Below, in pieces: positions 2,481 to 56,820 of a stretch of DNA of 64,000 bases. A model generated the notes under the pieces. The model saw nothing but the letters and a program-made list of their open reading frames with translations, did not search any database and was not told where the DNA came from. Origin of the DNA: a virus; the IMG/VR virus record IMGVR_UViG_3300035670_000111, positions 1 to 64,000 of that record; one strand, written 5' to 3'. Within the stretch, counting starts at the first letter, position 1. Every line of letters starts with the position of its first letter. The position numbers were made by a program, and so were the translations under genes.

Positions 2481-3962
2481 TTATTCTAAAGAATCGGAGA
2501 TGATTTTAGTCGTTTGTTCCTCGTTTAGCCCGCCATCCGGAAGCTGTTTTAGGGTATTGGCACGGTCTCCAAACAAGGCTGACAGTACACCGCCAGAACT
2601 TTGACGCTCTACGGTCATGCGTACAAATTCTTTGTTCTCCTCCAACTCCTTTACTTGTTTTACAATCTTGAACAAACGGTCAATTTCTTGACCCGTATTT
2701 GGGTCAGGGTAACCACCGTTTACCTCCTCTGCAAATCGAGAAAACGCAACTCTGGCGCCTTGCATCTCGATTATTGCATTCAGTAAAGCCTTTAATTGTT
2801 CCTTTGTTTTTACCTCAATTGGTAGGTTAAAAGCACAGGCTGAATCAGGCTTCATGGCAGGACAATTAGCCGCCACGAAACAGGTATTGCACTGACGTAA
2901 AGATACAGATGCGTTCTCGATAATCGAGGCATCTTTGATGACATCTCGGCCGGCCTCATCCTTGTCAATAACCGTCTTGGATGTCATAGAAAATACGGGT
3001 AGAGTACGCATTTCTTCAGGGGATCTGCCCTTTATTTCAACAGATTGTTTCCGCACCTCTAGGGCACTATTATCAGGTCCGATACCCTGTGTTTCCGCAG
3101 AACCTGGGTCATCCCTATCAGTGCTGTTATCTGATAACAAGACGCCTCCCTTTTTAGTTAATTGTTGTTCAAGCTGCAAGTAAGACCAAATTGCTAATTT
3201 TGTAACTTCATTGCTGTCATCATCTAGGATTAGTTGAAAATCTAGTCCAGCTTTTTCTATTACGGCTTTATACCTAGGTCGTGCCTGGTCTTTCATCTTC
3301 TTTTGATATCTGACCAGCTTAGTTCCATCCCAGACTATAGTCTCGCCACGCATCATTGGTGAGAGCCATGCTAGGGTGCTAGCGGTCTCCAGAGGCACCT
3401 GTCGAAGGTTATCAGGGGTGGCGCAGGCCAAGCCATGGAATGAGGCTCCGTACTGGGATTTGAGGGCTCTAGCCCTTGCTGAGAGGGTCACATCGTTATT
3501 GATGGTCTCTCCCAGAATCCCAATATGAGGATAGGTTTGGGCCAGGGACATAAGGGCTGGATGGCCTAGTTCGGGGTGCCAAACAGGCATGAACCTATCT
3601 ACGCCAAAGTCTTCCCAGAAAGTCTTTCTTTGTTCATTGATCCAGACAGATCCTAGGCCTTTGGCGTCTAATTCCACGGCCATATAAATTTTATCTTCGT
3701 TGATTGCTACCCAGTCTTCGTAGTCGGCAGCATAATCCTCAAGCTCAGCTTGAGATAGGGATTCTTTATTTAAATGATAGCCGCCGCCATCCACATAGAT
3801 CCGAACATCGTCTGGGAAGCGCTCAGAGAGCAGGTAATCCTTAGTTTTAGGTAGGCCACGCTTCATCAAACGCCAGAAATTGACGCCTATATGCTTGACT
3901 CCAGCCTCTATAAGAAGCTTTCTATGGGAAGGGACTTCGCCTCCAAGGAAGACTAGATCCAT
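2481..3962 (-). CDS. TGT/DpdA-like barrel protein with C-terminal cysteine cluster
   Basis: 493 residues from ATG 3962, chosen because it forms a TAATG overlap with the upstream gene and follows AGGTGGGA; a GTG nine bases earlier is possible. The N-terminal 220 residues follow the pattern of tRNA-guanine transglycosylases and phage DpdA: IYVDGGGYHL resembles the TDSGGFQ base-pocket block, ETINND follows an IGILG strand, and HGLACATPDNL precedes a TLAWLS segment. At the usual nucleophile position (as in SVDSTSW) this protein reads TASTLAW, so the Asp is not obviously kept. The second half carries C358, C361, C367 and C376, a likely metal or Fe-S site, and a helical tail. Base exchange in nucleic acid is an inference. 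It is the last gene of the tight operon with the HAD-like and nucleotidyltransferase genes. Confidence 0.5.
   Translation of the reverse strand: MDLVFLGGEVPSHRKLLIEAGVKHIGVNFWRLMKRGLPKTKDYLLSERFPDDVRIYVDGGGYHLNKESLSQAELEDYAADYEDWVAINEDKIYMAVELDAKGLGSVWINEQRKTFWEDFGVDRFMPVWHPELGHPALMSLAQTYPHIGILGETINNDVTLSARARALKSQYGASFHGLACATPDNLRQVPLETASTLAWLSPMMRGETIVWDGTKLVRYQKKMKDQARPRYKAVIEKAGLDFQLILDDDSNEVTKLAIWSYLQLEQQLTKKGGVLLSDNSTDRDDPGSAETQGIGPDNSALEVRKQSVEIKGRSPEEMRTLPVFSMTSKTVIDKDEAGRDVIKDASIIENASVSLRQCNTCFVAANCPAMKPDSACAFNLPIEVKTKEQLKALLNAIIEMQGARVAFSRFAEEVNGGYPDPNTGQEIDRLFKIVKQVKELEENKEFVRMTVERQSSGGVLSALFGDRANTLKQLPDGGLNEEQTTKIISDSLE
3124..3140. repeat. Palindrome, copy 2, inside the TGT-like gene
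   Basis: CTGTTATCTGATAACAA repeats 16 bases of the palindrome at 2455-2471 exactly, about 650 bases away and inside coding sequence (linker region between barrel and cysteine cluster). An exact 16-base match is not expected by chance in a window of this size, so a shared binding site or a copied segment is likely. Confidence 0.55.
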
Positions 3963-4423
3963 TATTCCCACCTATTTAAATTATCGTCCAAAAGAATCTT
4001 TGCTCTGAGCTGCTTCTGGGCATCTAATTCTTCTTTTAGCTCTGACCACGGGCGTGCTTCACGTTTTCTTCTTGTAAATCCAGGCTTGGCAAATAGGATT
4101 GTGGTTACTCCAGAGGCTATAGCAGAGGCGCAACGGTCCACGTCACAGTCTATAAACAGTTCTATATTTCCTGAAGATCTAGCTAGCTTTAGCTGACGTA
4201 GCCTTAGATCTTGACCTTCGTAAGCCAATCTATTGTCATAGAGCTCTGCATAACCAGTTAGTAAGTTTGCCCGTAACCAATGCTCGGCCTCTTCAGATGA
4301 CCCATCAGTTGCCAGAGCAACTCTATAGGTAGCCGCCATCGTCCTGAATAGTTTTAGGCCTTCGTGTATCGGATCGCCAACTTCAGTTCTTAATACGCCG
4401 TCTATTGAAATTAAAACCGTCAT
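3962..4423 (-). CDS. HAD-superfamily-like protein lacking the nucleophilic aspartate
   Basis: 153 residues. The start LISIDGVL matches HAD motif I (normally hhhDxDGT/V), followed by a strand-turn ALATDGS like motif II and a late ELFIDCDVDRC strand like motif IV. The first Asp of DxD, the phospho-accepting residue, is Ser6 here (codon TCA in the DNA), while the second is kept. The protein may therefore bind but not hydrolyse phosphate. Its ATG overlaps the TGA of the nucleotidyltransferase gene by four bases, and its TAA touches the ATG of the TGT-like gene, so the three are translationally coupled. Alternative: a divergent nucleotidase or polynucleotide phosphatase. Confidence 0.6.
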   Translation of the reverse strand: MTVLISIDGVLRTEVGDPIHEGLKLFRTMAATYRVALATDGSSEEAEHWLRANLLTGYAELYDNRLAYEGQDLRLRQLKLARSSGNIELFIDCDVDRCASAIASGVTTILFAKPGFTRRKREARPWSELKEELDAQKQLRAKILLDDNLNRWE

Positions 4424-9294: not shown

Positions 9295-9566
9295 TTGAAC
9301 GCCTCCGCTAGAGCATCTTTTTGAGTCAAACCGTTTAGAGAAGTCAAGAAGTCGCCGTGCTTAAATACCATAAAAGTTGGGAAACTAGACACACCATTTA
9401 TCTCTAACGCGTCGGATTCTTCCGAGTTAATACGAATTACCAATATGTCTGGATTGTCTGATTCAAATTGATCCATTATAGGATTTTGTTGCTGGCAGTA
9501 AGGGCACCAGTCTGCGTAAAAATACCAAAGTTCTTTTCCTTTTAATGCCGGATTTATATACTCCAT
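9291..9566 (-). CDS. Thioredoxin/glutaredoxin-like disulfide reductase
   Basis: 91 residues from ATG 9566 (TAATG junction, AAGGA nine bases upstream; a TTG two codons earlier is less likely). The active site is WCPYC with C21 and C24, and the cis-proline loop is SSFPTFMVF, so the fold and chemistry are clear. WCPYC lies between the thioredoxin (WCGPC) and glutaredoxin (CPYC) motifs. The likely role is cytosolic disulfide reduction, with the phage class II ribonucleotide reductase at 406-2427 as an obvious client (inference). Confidence 0.9.
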   Translation of the reverse strand: MEYINPALKGKELWYFYADWCPYCQQQNPIMDQFESDNPDILVIRINSEESDALEINGVSSFPTFMVFKHGDFLTSLNGLTQKDALAEAFN

Positions 9567-43949: not shown

Positions 43950-45509
43950 TTATGCCGAAGCTGTTCCGGTTATCTGACCAAGCTTGATCACAATAAACTC
44001 AGCTGGATACTCAAGGGCCACGCCAACTTCAATGTTAACACGACCATTTTGGATATCAGACTGGCTTGTTGTGCTTGCATCTACTTTTACGTAGTAAGCC
44101 TTGTCTGGACTGGATCCACGCAATCCGCCTTGCTGCCAGTAGCCACGTAGGAACGAGCCAAGGGCAACACGTAATTGAGACCACAGACGTTCGCTGTTGT
44201 TCTCAAATATTGCGAATGCGCTTCTATCAGTCAATTCTTTCTTAATATAGGTAAGAGAACGACGTACGCTGATGTAGCGATCTCCTGGAGTATTGTTCAG
44301 GGTGCGAGCGCCCATTACAACAATTCCGTTTCCAGGAACTTGGCGGATAGCGTTTACTGGAACTGCACCAGTATTTAGGTCATCCAACTCAACGTTGGTG
44401 AACTGACGCTCCGTTGCTACAGCTAGTGCTACGCGGTTTGTCAAACCTGCAGGGGCTTTGAAAACTCCGCGAGAAGCATCTGTAGCCAAGAACTGGCCCA
44501 TCATTGCTGCTCCTGGAGCTTGAGCTCTTGTTGCTCCGCCAGATGCACGTAGAGTGTCTGGAATAAGCAACCATGGGAAGTACGCGGCAGCGCATCCTCC
44601 GTCTGAATCTGGTGCAGCAGCCTTAACCTCTGTAAAGAATGTCTTAGCTGTTGCTACGGTTTCTCCGATAGGTGAATCAATAATTGCAAATGCGTCTCCG
44701 CGAAGCTCGCAATAGTTGATTAGATCCCCCTGGATATTTATCGCAAGGGTTCTTTCTGTACTTGTTCCTGTTGGAGTGTAGATATATGCTGCAGCAGGAA
44801 TGTTAAATAGAAGGGGATTCTGAATAGCGTCAAAAGTAGCTAGAGCTACAGAGTAATCAGTTCTGCTTGGAGCTGATCCATTTACGCCACCAGTTAGATC
44901 CTTTAGACCATCAATTTCTGGAAGATCGTCAGGAGAAACAGAAGCAGAGTTTTGATCCGCTACTGTTACGTATGCTGAAGAAGAATTTATGACAGATACC
45001 ACATAACGAGGATCTGTTGAGTCCATGCTTAGATCAGTAAATTGTTCAAGAAGATTTGAATTAGCTACAGAGCCAATTGGAGCTCCATAAACTAAAAGAG
45101 TGAATCTATTGCTAGTTCCTGCTTCTTGTACTTCTACTGCAAGGTCATTTCCCCATGCTCCTTGGTTAGCTGCTCGAACCAAGAGGGTGTTCAATGCTGA
45201 GTTTGAACGGTCTGTCAATACTACAGAGGCCTGCGCTGCTCCTGAGCCTAGAATACGTCGCACATAAAGCTGACGACCACCATTGGCAAAGAAGTTGTAT
45301 GCTGCCCATGTAGTTGGGTATGCGTCTTCAAGACTTCCAAAAGTCTTGACAAATTGTGTCCAAGAAGTTACAAGAACTGGAGTTACTGATGGTCCCTTTG
45401 CAAGGGTACCCACCAAAGCTCCTGCTGCCGTGCCCACATCTGCAAGCGCGACTTCTTGAGGAAGCTCAACTTCTTGAATAAAGACGCCTGGTCTACTATA
45501 TGTAGCCAT
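43950..45509 (-). CDS. Tail sheath protein
   Basis: 519 residues. YSRPGVFIQEVELP at the start, TVVTSW-like strand VLVTSWTQFVKTFG, AAYNFFANGGRQLYVRR, and the C-terminal GNGIVVMGARTLNN and NIEVGVALEYPAEFIVIKLGQ are the conserved sheath blocks. It proves that the tail is contractile. Conserved order: terminator, sheath, tube, gp26-like, tape measure. Confidence 0.95.
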   Translation of the reverse strand: MATYSRPGVFIQEVELPQEVALADVGTAAGALVGTLAKGPSVTPVLVTSWTQFVKTFGSLEDAYPTTWAAYNFFANGGRQLYVRRILGSGAAQASVVLTDRSNSALNTLLVRAANQGAWGNDLAVEVQEAGTSNRFTLLVYGAPIGSVANSNLLEQFTDLSMDSTDPRYVVSVINSSSAYVTVADQNSASVSPDDLPEIDGLKDLTGGVNGSAPSRTDYSVALATFDAIQNPLLFNIPAAAYIYTPTGTSTERTLAINIQGDLINYCELRGDAFAIIDSPIGETVATAKTFFTEVKAAAPDSDGGCAAAYFPWLLIPDTLRASGGATRAQAPGAAMMGQFLATDASRGVFKAPAGLTNRVALAVATERQFTNVELDDLNTGAVPVNAIRQVPGNGIVVMGARTLNNTPGDRYISVRRSLTYIKKELTDRSAFAIFENNSERLWSQLRVALGSFLRGYWQQGGLRGSSPDKAYYVKVDASTTSQSDIQNGRVNIEVGVALEYPAEFIVIKLGQITGTASA

Positions 45510-46727: not shown

Positions 46728-47015
46728 TTACTTCTTTTTCTTCTTTTCCCGCTTCTCTTCGGCCTTTTCGCCCTTCTTGCCCTCTTTCTTTTCGTGGGCT
46801 TTTTCCTTCTTTTCTATGCCTTTGATAATCTTCTTGTCAATAGCGATATCTTTACGCATAGTCTTAGGGTTGGCTTTTTTGCCGTGAGCTTTGTCTTTCT
46901 TTTCAAACTCTTCTTTTTGTTCTTTGTCAAGCTTCCTGGTTAGGTAAGCATCGACCGGTTCGTCCTTGGACTTGACGTACTTGCCCTTCATCATCTTAGC
47001 CTTAGGCTTTTTCAT
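46728..47015 (-). CDS. Lys-rich 95-residue protein
   Basis: ATG at 47015. About a third of residues are Lys, with Glu and Asp making charged helices (KLDKEQKEEFEKKDKAHGKK) and a Lys tail. Suits DNA or capsid-interior binding. It is the last gene before the terminator. An upstream GTG in the same frame is less likely because ribosome-site evidence is lacking. Confidence 0.7.
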   Translation of the reverse strand: MKKPKAKMMKGKYVKSKDEPVDAYLTRKLDKEQKEEFEKKDKAHGKKANPKTMRKDIAIDKKIIKGIEKKEKAHEKKEGKKGEKAEEKREKKKKK

Positions 47016-47091
47016 TAGGGTCTTCTTTCTGACAGGTGCAGCCACCACAGCCGCAGGTTACTTCTTCTTGCTCTGGCGAGCTGATTTGCAC
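47002..47091 (-). CDS. Possible 29-residue Cys-rich peptide
   Basis: GTG at 47091 to TAA at 47002: an acidic start (SSPEQEEV), then TCGCGGCTC with C13, C15, C18 and C20, then QKEDPNEKA. It overlaps the genes on both sides in a different frame and has no clear ribosome site. The cysteine pattern looks selected, but short overlapping frames can arise by chance. Confidence 0.35.
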   Translation of the reverse strand: MQISSPEQEEVTCGCGGCTCQKEDPNEKA

Positions 47092-48007: not shown

Positions 48008-48232
48008 TTACTCCTCTACTGGAAGGCTGTACTCATCGATTAGAGGGTCGTATGTTGCTCCAACTACTATGTTATGTGATTCGAGTGGCATTTTGTCTGA
48101 TACGTCTTTAATTACAGGTTCGCTTAAAAAGATAGCGCCAAGGCGTTCATCGGTATGTAGGATGTCTACAACCTGGTTATCAATGATAAAAGCAATCTTG
48201 ACTGGTGGTATTTCTTGAGTGTAATCAGCCAT
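48008..48232 (-). CDS. Small hypothetical protein of the neck cluster
   Basis: 74 residues, beta-rich (VKIAFIIDNQVVDILHTDERLGAIFLSEP). No cysteine or membrane segment. It starts inside the end of the DUF6171-like gene (eight-base overlap) and ends two bases before the neck gene start, so it belongs to this unit. Function unknown. Confidence 0.7.
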   Translation of the reverse strand: MADYTQEIPPVKIAFIIDNQVVDILHTDERLGAIFLSEPVIKDVSDKMPLESHNIVVGATYDPLIDEYSLPVEE

Positions 48233-48467
48233 TTATTTCCTCCTTATAGATATTGGTTACTGCTTCCCACTTATGTAATGGGCAAGAGGCGTTAGGAAGC
48301 TTTGTCTTAAGCTTCATTATGCAGCCACACTCTTTGCATTGAGTGGTGGCCTTTATAAATCTATCGCAGGTCTGACAGATCTCTAGTCTTTTCTGGGCAA
48401 TATCGGTTTCTACTCGACCTATATTCTTATTGAATAGGTCCCAGGGACGGGCGGGTCTTTCGCTCAT
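48225..48467 (-). CDS. DUF6171-like zinc-ribbon protein
   Basis: 80 residues. RLEICQTCDRFI (C31, C34), CKECGC (C44, C47, C49) and SCPLHKW (C62, H65) form the conserved zinc-binding pattern of this small phage family. AGGAG lies just before the ATG. Role unknown; found next to fibre and neck genes in various phages. Confidence 0.8.
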   Translation of the reverse strand: MSERPARPWDLFNKNIGRVETDIAQKRLEICQTCDRFIKATTQCKECGCIMKLKTKLPNASCPLHKWEAVTNIYKEEING

Positions 48468-48475
48468 TTATACTC

Positions 48476-50251
48476 CTATATTGTCGCCAAGAAATTGTCT
48501 ACGGTAGATCCTTGACTTCCTGTGGAAGGCGCCTTAATTATACCCACAGAAGTTCCCTTGGTGGGGGAAGTTGGGGTATGGCTTAGATCAGCCCCAAGTT
48601 GCGATCCGCCAAGGTTTGATCCAGAATAGGCCTTTGCCGTTATTACGTTACCTACAGTAGTTACGTATACAGAGCCGACTGTAGTAAAGCCAGAGTTATT
48701 GCTAGATATCTGTAAAGAAGCGGCCTCGCTTACTACTTCAGACACAGAGCTGGCTATTACTAGGGACGATACATAGGTAGTTACGCTCCTAGTGCCGGTG
48801 TAGCAAGAATAAGTTGTGACGCTTCTAGTGCTGGTGTAGCAAGAATAATTAGTGGTGTACGCGGTATAGCAAGAGTAATTTGTGGGCTGGTTTACTTGCT
48901 GTGTATAGCAAGAGTAGACTGTTCTATTTCTAGTCGAAGTATAACAAGAATAACTTACCGGATTAGTTACGGTACGTGTAGAGGTATAGCAAGAATAGGT
49001 AGTAGGGGTTGTAGTAGTACTATTACTGGTGTAGCAAGAATAAGTGGTTGGCGTAGCTGGGTTATAGCAAGAGTAGCTAGATAGCTCTTGTCCAGGGCTG
49101 CAATAGTAACAAGCAGTATAGGTGTTAATACACTCTCCGGAAATACCTTGACAGCAGTCATATCCAGCTATGCGCTGCTCATAGGTTTTAGTAATTGATG
49201 TTGCCGAATTTGAATAAGATCTAGCAGATCCTGGATTAGTAGTGACGCCAGAACAGCAGCTTCCTGATGGAGGGTTACTAGTACTTGTTACTTGACCTTG
49301 ATTGCAGACTGTGGTGGTTCCACCTCCAGAACTAGTGACGCCAGAACAACAGCTTCCTGAGGGAGGGTTACTAGAACCACTAACCTGTCCTTGATCGCAG
49401 ACTGTAGAGGTTCCACCACCGCTTGTTATAACGCCGGAGCAGCAGTTAGTTCCAGAACAGCTTGAGTTTGAGCACCCAGTTAGGCCCTGATCGCAAACAC
49501 TAACAGTTCCACTAGAAACTCCTGAGCAGCAGCTTCCAGAGGGCGGATTACTATAAGAATCTACGTATCCTCCGGTACATGCAGTTCCACCTCCGGAAGT
49601 AGTTACTCCAGAACAGCAGCTTCCAGAAGGAGGGTTGTTTGTGTTGGTGACCTGACTTTGGTTACAGGTTTGAGAGCTAGTTATGTCAGAGCAGCAATTT
49701 CCAGCAGGAGGACTATAGGTGTTAGTTGCCTGACTCTGATCGCATACTGAAGTGCTTCCAGTAGTTACTCCAGAACAGCAATTGCCAGCAGGAGGGTTTG
49801 AGGTATTGGTAACTTGACTCTGATCACAAAAAGTTTGAGTGCTTGAAGTATACCTAGGATAAGCAGCCCACCAAGATCCAGCGGAGCTTATCCAGAAAGA
49901 AACGCCAGTTCCACCAGTGGTATCTGTTTGTATCTTTACATCAGTATTTCCAAGGTTAGCCGAAGCTATTGGATATGTGCTAGCCGCATCATCTGCAATA
50001 GCTGTGTTAGAACCACTGATACGCCAGTTTCCGCGTAGAGCTGTCCACACCTGACCTGAGTCAGCTGTTCCTAATCCATTTACAGTAGAAGTTCTATTAA
50101 ACGCATCTTGTATTTTGGATGCAAACCATTGTTTCCATTGTCCACCCACTTTTACGAAGGCGCCAGTAGCGGTTTTCCATTGACCGCTTACTTTTACAGA
50201 AAGACCGCTAGCAGTCCTCCAGACGCCTCCTACTTTGGATGAACCCGGCAT
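48476..50251 (-). CDS. Tail protein with cysteine-rich repeat insertion
   Basis: 591 residues. Residues 8-40 hold two VxGxWKTATGxxVKV anchor repeats. Residues 45-132 (DAFNRTSTVNGLG...GVSFWISSAGSWWAAY) and 490-591 (SLVIASSVSEVV...GSTVDNFLATI) look like the two halves of one LamG/ConA-like jelly roll. Between them lie about seven units C(D/N)QxQ...NPPSGSCCSGV (142-340) and eight YSCYT units (392-487), over 40 Cys in total. Disulfides could form only outside the cell, so surface exposure is likely. Probably a host-recognition fibre tip; function inferred from position and composition. Confidence 0.8.
   Translation of the reverse strand: MPGSSKVGGVWRTASGLSVKVSGQWKTATGAFVKVGGQWKQWFASKIQDAFNRTSTVNGLGTADSGQVWTALRGNWRISGSNTAIADDAASTYPIASANLGNTDVKIQTDTTGGTGVSFWISSAGSWWAAYPRYTSSTQTFCDQSQVTNTSNPPAGNCCSGVTTGSTSVCDQSQATNTYSPPAGNCCSDITSSQTCNQSQVTNTNNPPSGSCCSGVTTSGGGTACTGGYVDSYSNPPSGSCCSGVSSGTVSVCDQGLTGCSNSSCSGTNCCSGVITSGGGTSTVCDQGQVSGSSNPPSGSCCSGVTSSGGGTTTVCNQGQVTSTSNPPSGSCCSGVTTNPGSARSYSNSATSITKTYEQRIAGYDCCQGISGECINTYTACYYCSPGQELSSYSCYNPATPTTYSCYTSNSTTTTPTTYSCYTSTRTVTNPVSYSCYTSTRNRTVYSCYTQQVNQPTNYSCYTAYTTNYSCYTSTRSVTTYSCYTGTRSVTTYVSSLVIASSVSEVVSEAASLQISSNNSGFTTVGSVYVTTVGNVITAKAYSGSNLGGSQLGADLSHTPTSPTKGTSVGIIKAPSTGSQGSTVDNFLATI
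48788..49078 (-). repeat. YSCYT-type tandem repeats in coding sequence
   Basis: Eight degenerate units of about 10-15 residues, each with YSCYT or YSCYN (for example TYSCYTSTRTVT). At DNA level this appears as a recurring TAGCAAGAATA every 30-60 bases. Part of the tail protein at 48476-50251. Confidence 0.85.
49232..49828 (-). repeat. NPPSGSCCSGV tandem repeats in coding sequence
   Basis: About seven units of 25-32 residues, each with one leading Cys, a Gln-rich stretch, NPP(S/A)G and a CC pair. Unit 5 is diverged (CSNSSCSGTNCC). DNA copies differ at many third positions, so the repeats are kept by protein selection. Encodes the core insertion of the tail protein. Confidence 0.85.
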
Positions 50252-52462: not shown

Positions 52463-52573
52463 TTATTCTTCAGGATATACTAGGTCGTAACCTACTACTA
52501 CTCCTTCATCGTTCTTGACTTCAAACTTCTCTGCGCCAGTTTCTGGATCAATTCCTAGGCTTGTACGTATCAT
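52463..52573 (-). CDS. 36-residue hypothetical protein
   Basis: ATG at 52573, TAA at 52463. The product IRTSLGIDPETGAEKFEVKNDEG... ends VYPEE and overlaps the collagen-like fibre stop by four bases (ATGA). Function unknown. It fills the gap before the glycosyltransferase gene. Confidence 0.65.
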   Translation of the reverse strand: MIRTSLGIDPETGAEKFEVKNDEGVVVGYDLVYPEE

Positions 52574-54708
52574 GAGAACCTTCCCCAAACGCTAATTGTA
52601 CTAGAGGACATGCTGCTAATAGTGGTAGGTAAATCTGTCTGAGCGGCCACTGCTCCAGTAAGTCTAGGAGCTAGTGTAGATAGGGTAGCCGGCACAGAAC
52701 TATACGCAAGTTGTAGGTTTCCAGTTGTAGATGCTAATACTATGATTCCAAGGGCGTATCTAGTTCCCGCAGTAAGGGCATAAGTTGAGGGGAAACCTCC
52801 CGTAGTATCAAGATTTCGTGTGTAAAGGGTGTTAGTAGTGCTAAACAAGGTAGTGTCGTTAGCTGTTCTGGCTACTAAAGTTGCAGTATTTCCAGAGACT
52901 GTATAGATACCTAGTCTGATTAAAGAAGCTCCGGTAGTTGCAATAGTAGATGAAGCTACACTTATTGAATCTACTACGGCATCCCAGCTAGGGGTAAACA
53001 TAGTTAGGTAAACAGTTCCGCTTGTAGGCGTTCCAGTAAAGTTACCGATTCTTGGGTAAACATCAACAATATCTGAGCTTTGATTTAAAGTACCCGCAGC
53101 AGCTATTAGAGGATTATCCCAGACCAATCCCGTAGATTCTGCAGAGTTTGCTGATAAGAACTTTCCATTTGCTCCAACCGCTAAGTTATCTATAGTTCCA
53201 CTAGCTGTAGCAGCTAATAGATCTCCCTTTGCCGTAACTAAGTGGGTACCCAAAAGAGTTGTATTCTCTGCTGGAACCGTAACGGTTACGTCTGCTACAG
53301 GATCTGTAAAACTTAAAGTTGTCTCAAAGTCGTTAGCAGTTCCCTCTACGGTTAAGCTTGAATCAGAAATATATAGACCTGATACTGTTGGGGTTGTTAA
53401 AGTTAAATCTGCAACTGAAGTTGTAGTGTCACCTAAAGTTATAGCTGTAGATCCAAGCGTTATTCCGGAATTTTCAAGCTTATCATTTGTTACGTCACCG
53501 TCAACAATTTTTGCTGTGGTAACCGAACCGTCTAGCGGAGTTCTTTCATCAGATAGACGACTATCATCTCCAAGGACAACCTCTCCCGCTGCGGCATCTC
53601 CTGTGGTTGAATAATTTTTACCTGCTGCGGTTCCCGCATCAGAAACCTGTGAAAGGGTTATAGATAACAGAGATTGATCAAGACCTAGCACTGCGGCGGT
53701 AGATGTTCCAGTATTTGTAACAGGACCCGTTACAGAGATAACTCCAGATGGACCGGTTGGGCCTATATCTCCCTGAGGACCTGTTGGGCCGGTGTCTCCC
53801 TGTGGTCCAGTAGGACCTTGTGGACCAACAATCTGACCGGCGCTGTACCAGCCAGAGATATCGCTCCAAACGTAAACATCTCCATCTGAGTCAACAATGT
53901 AAGCATCATTTTGGTTTGGAGTTGGAGTTGTTGGTAAATCTATAGGAGTAGCAACGCTACCAATAAGGTTGATAGCAACACCTTGTGGACCTGTAGGACC
54001 AAGCTCTCCTTGAGGTCCTGTTGGTCCCGTTTCACCTTGAGGACCGGTTGGTCCAAGGTTTGAAACCGCGATTGCTCCAGCCATTGGTGGGTGGTATTGG
54101 CAAACGTAATAAAGTTGCGGTGCGTCAAAAGGAACTTCAAAAATAATAGTTCCACTTTGAGTACCATTGTTAGTAATTCCTGTGCTGTAAATATTTCCAG
54201 AACTATAGGCTCCAGATACTGTTTGAATCCAGAATGGATGGCCTACAGCATTAACATTAATTACATATCTGTGACCACGAATGAAAGATAACGTTGGGTT
54301 GCTTTCGCCATTAATTACGTAAGCGCCTGATCCAGAGTTAGTTACATTTAGAACAATACCGCCACTAGGACCAGTTGGTCCAGTTGGTCCTGTTGGACCT
54401 GTAGGACCGGTGACACCTTGAGGAATACCAAAGTTGTATACGGCTGCAGTTGCAGTTCCTGTATTAACAACGGTTGCAGAAGATCCTGGGGCTAGGGTAG
54501 AAACAACTCCTACAGTTGCTGTAGAACTTGGGCCTGTTGGACCTGTTGGTCCGGAGGAGTAGGGCAAAGAGTTCCAAGCAGATGAACCATTTCCAATTTT
54601 AAACTTACCAGTGTCGTACTCGTAACCAACTTCTCCTTGGGAAAGGATTGGGTTTGCGGTTGCCCACTCAGATACAGTTCCGCGTCTAAATTGAACTTTA
54701 ACTGCCAT
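52570..54708 (-). CDS. Collagen-like tail fibre with cupredoxin-like domain
   Basis: 712 residues from ATG 54708 (TAATG junction; GGAAAG upstream). Residues 1-50 are the tail-fibre head FRRGTVSEWATANPILSQGEVGYEYDT. G-P-T/Q repeats at 53-60, 101-115, 219-243 and 296-320 form collagen-like stalks. Residues 118-217 look like a cupredoxin with ligands H157, C203, H206 and M209. The C-terminal half has GYxx-like beta modules. Trimeric fibre for host attachment, with a possible copper site. Confidence 0.85.
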   Translation of the reverse strand: MAVKVQFRRGTVSEWATANPILSQGEVGYEYDTGKFKIGNGSSAWNSLPYSSGPTGPTGPSSTATVGVVSTLAPGSSATVVNTGTATAAVYNFGIPQGVTGPTGPTGPTGPTGPSGGIVLNVTNSGSGAYVINGESNPTLSFIRGHRYVINVNAVGHPFWIQTVSGAYSSGNIYSTGITNNGTQSGTIIFEVPFDAPQLYYVCQYHPPMAGAIAVSNLGPTGPQGETGPTGPQGELGPTGPQGVAINLIGSVATPIDLPTTPTPNQNDAYIVDSDGDVYVWSDISGWYSAGQIVGPQGPTGPQGDTGPTGPQGDIGPTGPSGVISVTGPVTNTGTSTAAVLGLDQSLLSITLSQVSDAGTAAGKNYSTTGDAAAGEVVLGDDSRLSDERTPLDGSVTTAKIVDGDVTNDKLENSGITLGSTAITLGDTTTSVADLTLTTPTVSGLYISDSSLTVEGTANDFETTLSFTDPVADVTVTVPAENTTLLGTHLVTAKGDLLAATASGTIDNLAVGANGKFLSANSAESTGLVWDNPLIAAAGTLNQSSDIVDVYPRIGNFTGTPTSGTVYLTMFTPSWDAVVDSISVASSTIATTGASLIRLGIYTVSGNTATLVARTANDTTLFSTTNTLYTRNLDTTGGFPSTYALTAGTRYALGIIVLASTTGNLQLAYSSVPATLSTLAPRLTGAVAAQTDLPTTISSMSSSTISVWGRFS
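54058..54357 (-). other. Cupredoxin-like domain region within the fibre gene
   Basis: Codes for residues 118-217 of the fibre. The blocks NPTLSFIRGHRYVI, VNAVGHPFWIQ (H157) and QLYYVCQYHPPMAGAI (C203, H206, M209) follow the type I copper fold of plastocyanin-like proteins: an N-terminal His then C-x2-H-x2-M. Collagen-like repeats flank it on both sides. Confidence 0.65.
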
Positions 54709-54851
54709 TAGCAATCACACTTCTTTCCTTTTTTCATTTTCCACCACATCCAAACATGGTGAGCCGCCATTAGTCCCATAAGAGCCCACATAACTTTCAT
54801 CTCAGTTATTTGAAAAGAAAAGTCTGTTGAGTGATTTGTATGATCATGCAT
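54708..54851 (-). CDS. 47-residue small membrane protein
   Basis: ATG at 54851 (TAATG with upstream stop), TAA at 54708. A His-containing N-terminus (HDHTNHSTD) is followed by a Met/Trp-rich hydrophobic segment (MWALMGLMAAHHVWMWW) and a basic CDC end. His, Met and Cys residues on both sides of a membrane span are suggestive of metal contact, which is interesting beside the cupredoxin-like fibre; unproven. Confidence 0.65.
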   Translation of the reverse strand: MHDHTNHSTDFSFQITEMKVMWALMGLMAAHHVWMWWKMKKGKKCDC

Positions 54852-55869: not shown

Positions 55870-56820
55870 TTATAGAATTCCTCCATAGTACAGGGTTATA
55901 CCCATCAATACGACAGGCACTACAAGCGCAAGGATAGCCTTATAGTAATCTTTAAGCGGAGTCCTAAAATAACTCTTTCCTACAACTAGGCACTTGTGGG
56001 CTGGGGATAGCATGTACCCAGCGTAGTCAACGGCAAAGAACAATGGCAAGGTTTCAACGCCAAATACTCCTACAGATAGGACCACAAATCCAGCAAACTT
56101 GCTACTGCTTCCTAGGGCAAAGCTGGCTAGAAAACCAGTAAATGCTACAAGAATAAGTAGGTTGTTTTTATGGGCGGCCTCAATCCATCCGTTAATCGTG
56201 TCGATATTAGCCTTAACAATGTTGCTAAGCACGATAACAATGGCGGTGAATACTAAGACTCGTGCGTAGTCAATGAGTTGCTTACGATCACGCTTGGAAT
56301 CTGCCTCTAACTGCCAAGACTCCTTATCCTTCTTCTTTAGCGGTTTCCCTGGAATAACGATTTCAATATCATTTTCTTTTAGTACCTTAAAGATATAGAA
56401 CAAAATAACAACTGCTGCGGTAGCAAGTAAGGGCGAAATTTTACTCATTAACTCCCAGTAACTAATGCTTAGAGCTGCCATAGGCAATAAAACAGTAGCC
56501 TCTAATGGGGACCAGAAGTAAAAATGATGCGTAGATAGGTAGTCAATAATTCCGTAATTCTTACGCTTTTTGTGATCTTCTGGAGCAATGGTATCTAGAG
56601 CACCAGCCGAAATAGCGACGCGACCTGAAATCGGTAGTACACCAGAAAATAGGGAGATCAGCGCTACGACTGCTCTCTTTGACTTAACACGTGTAGCAAT
56701 CCATGCGTAAAACGGCATGAATACTTGTGTCTTTTTTGCAGCAAAGGAAAGTCCCATTACTGCGGCCAGTAGAATGAGGAATTGCTGATTATCCAGCAAC
56801 AACGATGATGTAAATTCCAT
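55870..56820 (-). CDS. DUF401-like integral membrane permease
   Basis: 316 residues with about eight hydrophobic segments. The pattern LFSGVLPISGRVAIS, FWSPLEATVLLPMA and VETLPLFFAVDYAGYMLSPAHKCLVVGKSYF matches the DUF401/IT-superfamily transporters, in which the SPxHxCLxV block is conserved. Such proteins are rarely seen in phages. It overlaps the U32-methyltransferase gene by 32 bases. Substrate unknown; likely a host-derived metabolic gene acting in the inner membrane. Confidence 0.75.
   Translation of the reverse strand: MEFTSSLLLDNQQFLILLAAVMGLSFAAKKTQVFMPFYAWIATRVKSKRAVVALISLFSGVLPISGRVAISAGALDTIAPEDHKKRKNYGIIDYLSTHHFYFWSPLEATVLLPMAALSISYWELMSKISPLLATAAVVILFYIFKVLKENDIEIVIPGKPLKKKDKESWQLEADSKRDRKQLIDYARVLVFTAIVIVLSNIVKANIDTINGWIEAAHKNNLLILVAFTGFLASFALGSSSKFAGFVVLSVGVFGVETLPLFFAVDYAGYMLSPAHKCLVVGKSYFRTPLKDYYKAILALVVPVVLMGITLYYGGIL

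Follow-up and report, generated by a model that had tools for sequence, protein, structure and literature searches.

What kind of structure is built by a viral protein in which a long, cysteine-laden insert appears to split one domain into two halves? The question is raised by a minus-strand gene of the window, the whole 64,000-nt stretch analysed here (positions 1 to 64,000 of the IMG/VR virus record IMGVR_UViG_3300035670_000111, which has 88,239 bases). The gene is a single open reading frame of 591 aa, and it can be divided as follows.

48476–50251, minus strand: whole gene, 591 aa, probable tail or baseplate adhesin with a putative disulfide-ladder insert (synteny is part of the basis)
50117–50251, minus strand: residues 1–45, GGxWkxxxxxxVKV repeats, a phage tail module and probable attachment end
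49829–50116, minus strand: residues 46–141, predicted N-terminal half of a ConA-like jelly roll, continuing into the base of the hairpin
49253–49828, minus strand: residues 142–333, putative ascending arm, seven units of three cysteines each (five in unit 5), 23 cysteines
49037–49252, minus strand: residues 334–405, putative tip, 6 cysteines, that of YSCYN among them
48803–49036, minus strand: residues 406–483, putative descending arm, seven YSCYT cysteines with spacings that mirror the ascending arm
48479–48802, minus strand: residues 484–591, base of the hairpin and predicted C-terminal half of the jelly roll

All 36 cysteines of the protein lie within the insert (counted on L001, a protein identical to that of the window), rather than the total of over 40 given in a preliminary description of this DNA; the insert boundary proposed there (residues 133–489) is near that obtained from profile alignment. 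The seven NPPSGSCCSGV-type units reported there are present (with CDQ, the CDQ...NPPSGSCCSGV type), six of them being of the NPP/SPP...CCSGV type and one (CDQGLTGCSNSSCSGTNCCSGV) having two additional cysteines, while the supposed eight YSCYT units are seven exact copies plus one YSCYN. Third-position variation in the repeat DNA had been taken as a sign of selection on the protein, and this is borne out: the six NPPxGxCCSGV units show dN 0.09 and dS 1.64, and the seven YSCYT units dN 0 and dS 1.31. The dN/dS ratios (0.06 and 0, respectively) indicate purifying selection, which argues against the view that the insert is non-specific, low-complexity repeat growth in a tolerant loop. The richness of the inserts in S, T, G, N and Y and their very variable lengths would fit such growth, but the better conservation of the cysteines, their parity and the register of the repeats (see below) also speak against it, and it is scarcely credible as an explanation. 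The window protein has no match in Pfam at E up to 1, nor has its relative L092. In PHROGs, residues 1–45 are weakly matched (phrog_36019 and phrog_25859, E 1.7e-4 and 4.8e-4), and elsewhere in the protein there is just one match, at E 0.027.

Profile searches of IMG/VR for distinct sequences with both jelly-roll halves gave 101 sequences, that of the window included: 59 in a first set and 42 new ones in a later, confirmatory scan with a different query. The position of the insert is constant across all of them, its length ranges from 65 to 450 aa and its cysteines number from 0 to 64. In an insert-free homologue (L061), a profile of the joined halves aligns unbroken across the join (E 1.3e-16), and in L101 it also aligns in one piece, more weakly. 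In the AlphaFold2 model of the short-insert relative L092 (46 family members; pLDDT 88.6, pTM 0.77), the pLDDT of the jelly roll mostly exceeds 90, and strands 94–124 and 157–184 form one long hairpin at the insert, the outer blocks of which are less confident (pLDDT 63–80). When compared with known folds by a second-look alignment (VIA), the model shares the jelly-roll fold of the carbohydrate-binding domain CBM66 (PDB 4b1m, Z 17.9 over 150 residues), the central fibre gp20 of mycobacteriophage Douge (PDB 8zdp, Z 17.4 over 166) and TM4 gp23 (PDB 9n6a, Z 15.0 over 168). A single Foldseek search against the PDB gave no match at E 1e-3 or better, and the fold claim depends on VIA. The L061 join, the L092 model and the CBM66 match agree with the original suggestion that an insertion separates the two halves of one ConA-like jelly roll, and the window protein would have this fold as well, its halves being shared by profile and the fold modelled on L092. 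The AlphaFold2 model of the window protein with 10 relatives (pLDDT 32, pTM 0.25) was set aside as evidence.

The family profile has no match among the sequences of solved structures at E up to 1, and tblastn against 50,697 phage records found no cultured relative with the whole window protein at E 1e-5 and none with L092 at E 0.1. With the N-terminal half as sole query there were 24 records (best E 5e-3), and with L158 there were 12, chiefly via its N-terminal repeats. Several unannotated BFVD proteins of ‘uncultured Caudovirales phage’ (A0A6J5KM36, A0A6J5RDN1, A0A6J5MLT4 and others) are fold matches, the first six with E 2e-20 to 4.6e-9, and are probably further family members. No description of a cysteine-insert jelly-roll family was found in the open PMC papers searched, although literature elsewhere may differ. 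The ‘cysteine-rich repeat’ of rusticalin was dropped as a candidate since, in the extracts of PMC7379824 and PMC6339383, it belongs to animal proteins.

The number of cysteines in the insert is even in 101 of 101 sequences (59/59 in the first set and 42/42 in the confirmatory set; in one the number is zero), and in 45 of 45 cysteine-containing clusters at 50% insert identity. As a control, 38–60 of the 101 inserts have an even count of Ser, Tyr, Gly, Asn, Thr, Ala, Pro or Gln, depending on the residue; among other ORFs of the same loci with at least 150 aa and at least 4 cysteines, 18 have an even number of cysteines and 11 an odd one (1 and 3, respectively, if at least 8 cysteines are required). 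Cysteines in the flanks are rare, being present in five of the 101 proteins; four of these have exactly one, which makes the whole-protein count odd. Since cysteines are conserved in pairs and not in groups of four, the simplest reading is that each insert cysteine is in a disulfide. Metal binding had been offered as a role for the repeats. Zinc or another metal might be bound in a metallothionein-like or zinc-ribbon-like array; CxC and CxxC motifs do occur in several inserts, and many relatives have a small zinc-ribbon-like gene directly downstream. As the main role it is disfavoured, because 53 of the 101 inserts have 4n+2 cysteines, unlike four-cysteine sites throughout; a metal sponge would have no need for strict evenness, and histidine makes up 0.2% of the inserts, so that this reading is very unlikely. 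One sequence counts against a disulfide ladder: L260 (ORF 2824–4113, plus strand) has at the same site a 200-aa insert that is tyrosine-rich, with repeats, and has no cysteine. It is perhaps a ladder without disulfides.

The repeats themselves are spaced in a regular manner. In the ascending arm of the window protein, the distances from the first cysteine of the CC pair to the first cysteine of the next unit are 12, 10, 13, 12, 15 and 15, and the distances between YSCYT cysteines, read in reverse, form the same series; of the 180 possible orders of these six distances, one fits. Ascending distances equal the reversed descending ones in seven of nine examined sequences (L001, L002, L071, L026, L028, L029 and L069), which are kin and not independent tests. 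The series of L002 and L071 is that of the window, L028 and L029 have 12, 13, 15, 15, 15, and L026 and L069 have 12, 13, 15, 15. A shared series with a varying rung number (5, 6 or 7) implies that the gain or loss of a rung has affected the two arms together, at corresponding places, and agrees with the expectation that copy number differs between close relatives. For the window's class, the units were set only once the sequences had been inspected; with the first unit patterns, the linkers matched are 6/6 in L001 and L002, 6/7 in L071, 4/5 in L026, 5/5 in L028 and L029, and 0/2 in L069, which matches at 4 steps under a cysteine-only rule. The divergent L004 and L005, assigned to the class by their first unit and scored with the first pattern only, match at one of two linkers each. 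Stalk and tip cysteines are each even in all seven matching sequences (for the window protein, 23 + 7 and 6, respectively). In other classes, arm counts judged by eye are equal in L114 (9/9), L055 (3/3), L021 (3/3, vs 2/2 in L022) and L011 (6/6).

Across the whole family the mirrored spacing did not reach significance. A blind test on 27 clusters gave Wilcoxon p values of 0.14 (relative to parallel order) and 0.81 (relative to permutations), and a second blind test gave Fisher p 0.27 (order only, 0.07), the antiparallel arrangement being better in 11 cases and worse in 15; uncorrected permutation p values up to 0.05 were obtained in 4 of 27 clusters (L154, L135, L176 and L175). Either bulges in other classes defeat the scores, or strict register is limited to some classes.

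If the first and last cysteines of the insert are opposed, their distances to the jelly roll should differ by a constant. With profile anchors, 13 of the 30 clusters have an offset (a−d) of exactly 9 and another six have 3; in 50,000 permutations the modal count has a mean of 4.2 clusters and a maximum of 9. In 15 clusters consisting of new sequences only, the mode is again 9 (5/15, p 0.007). The effect is weaker with motif anchors than with profile anchors (mode 9/30, p 0.00045), nine of the 30 clusters are exceptions at 3–5 rather than 7–10, and four are outliers; the two offsets show a Spearman correlation of 0.64 (p 1.6e-4) and a Pearson correlation of 0.26 that is not significant (p 0.17). 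In the L092 model, C110 would lie opposite C169, going by our own reading of the strand limits.

These measurements bear on whether the CDQ/NPP and YSCYT repeats are two independent arrays in a loop, a row of knots followed by a row of elements without mutual pairing. The family-wide blind tests, not being significant, are consistent with this, and even cysteine numbers by themselves would fit it too. The mirrored spacings and equal copy number on both arms in seven sequences, the constant offset of first and last cysteine and the modelled hairpin of L092 all argue the other way, and since each YSCYT unit has one cysteine, seven or five of them in an array would always leave one without a partner. 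Independent arrays are therefore unlikely. The repeats described earlier are real, but side-by-side cassettes are a less apt picture of them than the opposed arms of a single hairpin whose units stay in register.

The reading that we favour, and consider probable, is that the cysteine insert is one long antiparallel, disulfide-closed hairpin on a virion adhesin with a ConA-like jelly roll of CBM66-like fold. To features computed from the sequences (the common site, the parity, the register in the window's class, the base offset and the exchange of inserts) and to the hairpin predicted for a relative, this adds disulfide pairing, virion location and host binding, which we infer. Both ends of the hairpin would meet the jelly roll at one and the same beta-hairpin turn, and each ascending unit (C...CC, of 3 or 5 cysteines) would oppose one descending YSCYT (1 cysteine), so that every rung would have an even number of cysteines and be closed by disulfides. 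Between rungs, linkers of equal length would pair as a beta-ribbon, giving a stiff mast that bears a separate disulfide-bonded tip. By our own arithmetic, the 77 residues spanned by the descending arm of the window protein would reach on the order of 25 nm if fully extended. The mast may project from the tail, with its variable tip and rungs in contact with the host surface, and its likely role is that of a rigid mast with a variable host-binding tip. The idea of a rigid, protruding structure had been raised before, and it remains the best reading. Counting against a disulfide ladder is the cytoplasmic site of phage assembly, which is presumably reducing; the bonds might form after lysis, or by means of a phage or host oxidase. 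Pairing might also take place between chains, with the repeats of one chain joined to the opposite arm of the next in a dimer or trimer. A trimeric state is common among phage fibres, and symmetric interchain pairs would likewise be expected to leave an even number per chain, but the hairpin already forms in the single-chain model of L092, and we regard an interchain ladder as quite unlikely.

The proposed mast appears to evolve separately from the domain that carries it. Among 131 pairs whose flanks are at least 60% identical, 126 have an insert that is less similar than either flank. In the pair L057/L059 the flanks have dN 0.003 and dS 0.15, and the insert dN 0.43 and dS 1.09; the corresponding values for L044/L046 are 0.002 and 0.051, and 0.38 and 1.08. 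That the insert dS is high as well speaks more for replacement by recombination than for a relaxation of selection. On these sequence comparisons, mast and tip are more likely a fast-evolving cassette that is swapped by recombination while the jelly roll is retained. The cysteines are the best-kept positions, with 376 of 401 cysteine columns identical vs 2337 of 3233 remaining columns (17 pairs). A clearly faster insert is absent in three of the 17 pairs: in L158/L156 and L158/L171 the insert dN is below the flank dN, and in L001/L002 the two are alike. The inserts of L123/L125 are identical.

Among the genes of the virus record are those of a tail sheath, a baseplate J protein and a fibre combining an Mtd_N domain with collagen repeats, and the virus is accordingly a contractile-tailed phage. 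The best relatives of the sheath are those of Streptomyces phages (35.7% identity, Streptomyces phage BRock), which hints at an actinobacterial host; in the annotation of the 33.9 kb of BRock examined there is no named counterpart of the adhesin. The adhesin gene lies between fibre genes (52570–54714) and the sheath (43950–45509), and its neighbours recur in 82 of 101 family loci. The family protein is probably a tail-tip protein of many uncultured bacterial viruses. Directly downstream of the adhesin gene of the window is a small CxxC zinc-ribbon-like gene (48225–48467, minus strand; PF19668, E 4e-07; phrog_13558). Of the 101 loci, 62 have a homologue no more than 3 kb downstream of the family gene; among loci where at least 2.5 kb of sequence is present on that side, the share is 23 of 24. 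The median gap is about 10 bases, and the product of the small gene possibly partners the adhesin.

Among the fold neighbours, the tip-CTD of the Douge central fibre is stated, in the extract of PMC13033339, to bind M. smegmatis cells and cell-wall glycans, which by analogy would support a binding role for the family jelly roll; that extract describes no insert in the Douge fibre. The nearest analogy to the insert is the bovine ultralong CDR H3 where, according to excerpts of the literature, a beta-ribbon stalk from a beta-sandwich loop lifts a disulfide-bonded variable knob (PMC5994613) and the number and position of cysteines vary (PMC5994613, PMC8602281). The likeness is one of working principle and not of descent. 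The scaffold is a ConA-like jelly roll in the family and an immunoglobulin in the CDR H3, the inserts have 65–450 aa as against up to 70 aa in those excerpts, and, unlike in the CDR H3, the stalk would consist of disulfide rungs and repeats and variation would arise by phage evolution and cassette exchange. The broader claim that the ultralong CDR H3 has its viral counterpart in a large family of environmental phages, whose jelly-roll adhesins would display exchangeable disulfide-stapled masts, seems to us evenly balanced between true and false. Mtd and the tentaclins, which are diversified by DGRs, resemble the family in having a variable hairpin on a lectin-like phage adhesin, as given in the extract of PMC10743442. 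As far as that extract goes, DGR targets have a C-type lectin fold and undergo point hypermutation, whereas the family would have a ConA-like fold and change by whole cassettes. The 88,239-base virus record, possibly a fragment, has no match to a reverse transcriptase (RVT_1).

The feature is real and unusual, a variant of a phage jelly-roll adhesin with a predicted hairpin made from two different repeat families in step. If the proposed structure is true, phages would reach their hosts by a hypervariable disulfide-laddered mast, a way of coping with variable host surfaces that is distinct from DGRs and fibre swapping. It would also be a repeat protein of a new type: two distinct repeat families would face each other across a single hairpin, every copy and every linker on one strand having its match on the other. 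Even cysteine counts would serve as a simple sequence signature for finding such structures, and, given the register of the two arms, the number of rungs and the pairing of the disulfides could be predicted from the sequence. The jelly roll would provide a scaffold with very long, rigid and exchangeable binding loops. A further question would then be what allows 18 disulfides to form, the protein being presumably a product of the bacterial cytoplasm.

Several other genes of the window deserve mention. A thioredoxin-fold gene (9300–9530, minus strand; PF00085, 49.9 bits) has a CPYC motif, read from the sequence, and no match to the glutaredoxin family; its product could serve ribonucleotide reductase or cysteine oxidation. 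The fibre protein at 52570–54714 (minus strand) joins a major tropism determinant N-terminal domain to collagen-like repeats. A membrane-protein-like gene at 55870–56820 (minus strand), with a DUF401 match (E 3.6e-08), is unusual among phage structural genes. Finally, a 106-aa protein very rich in lysine and glutamate is encoded at 46728–47048 (minus strand), and in several relatives it is likewise retained in the vicinity of the family gene.
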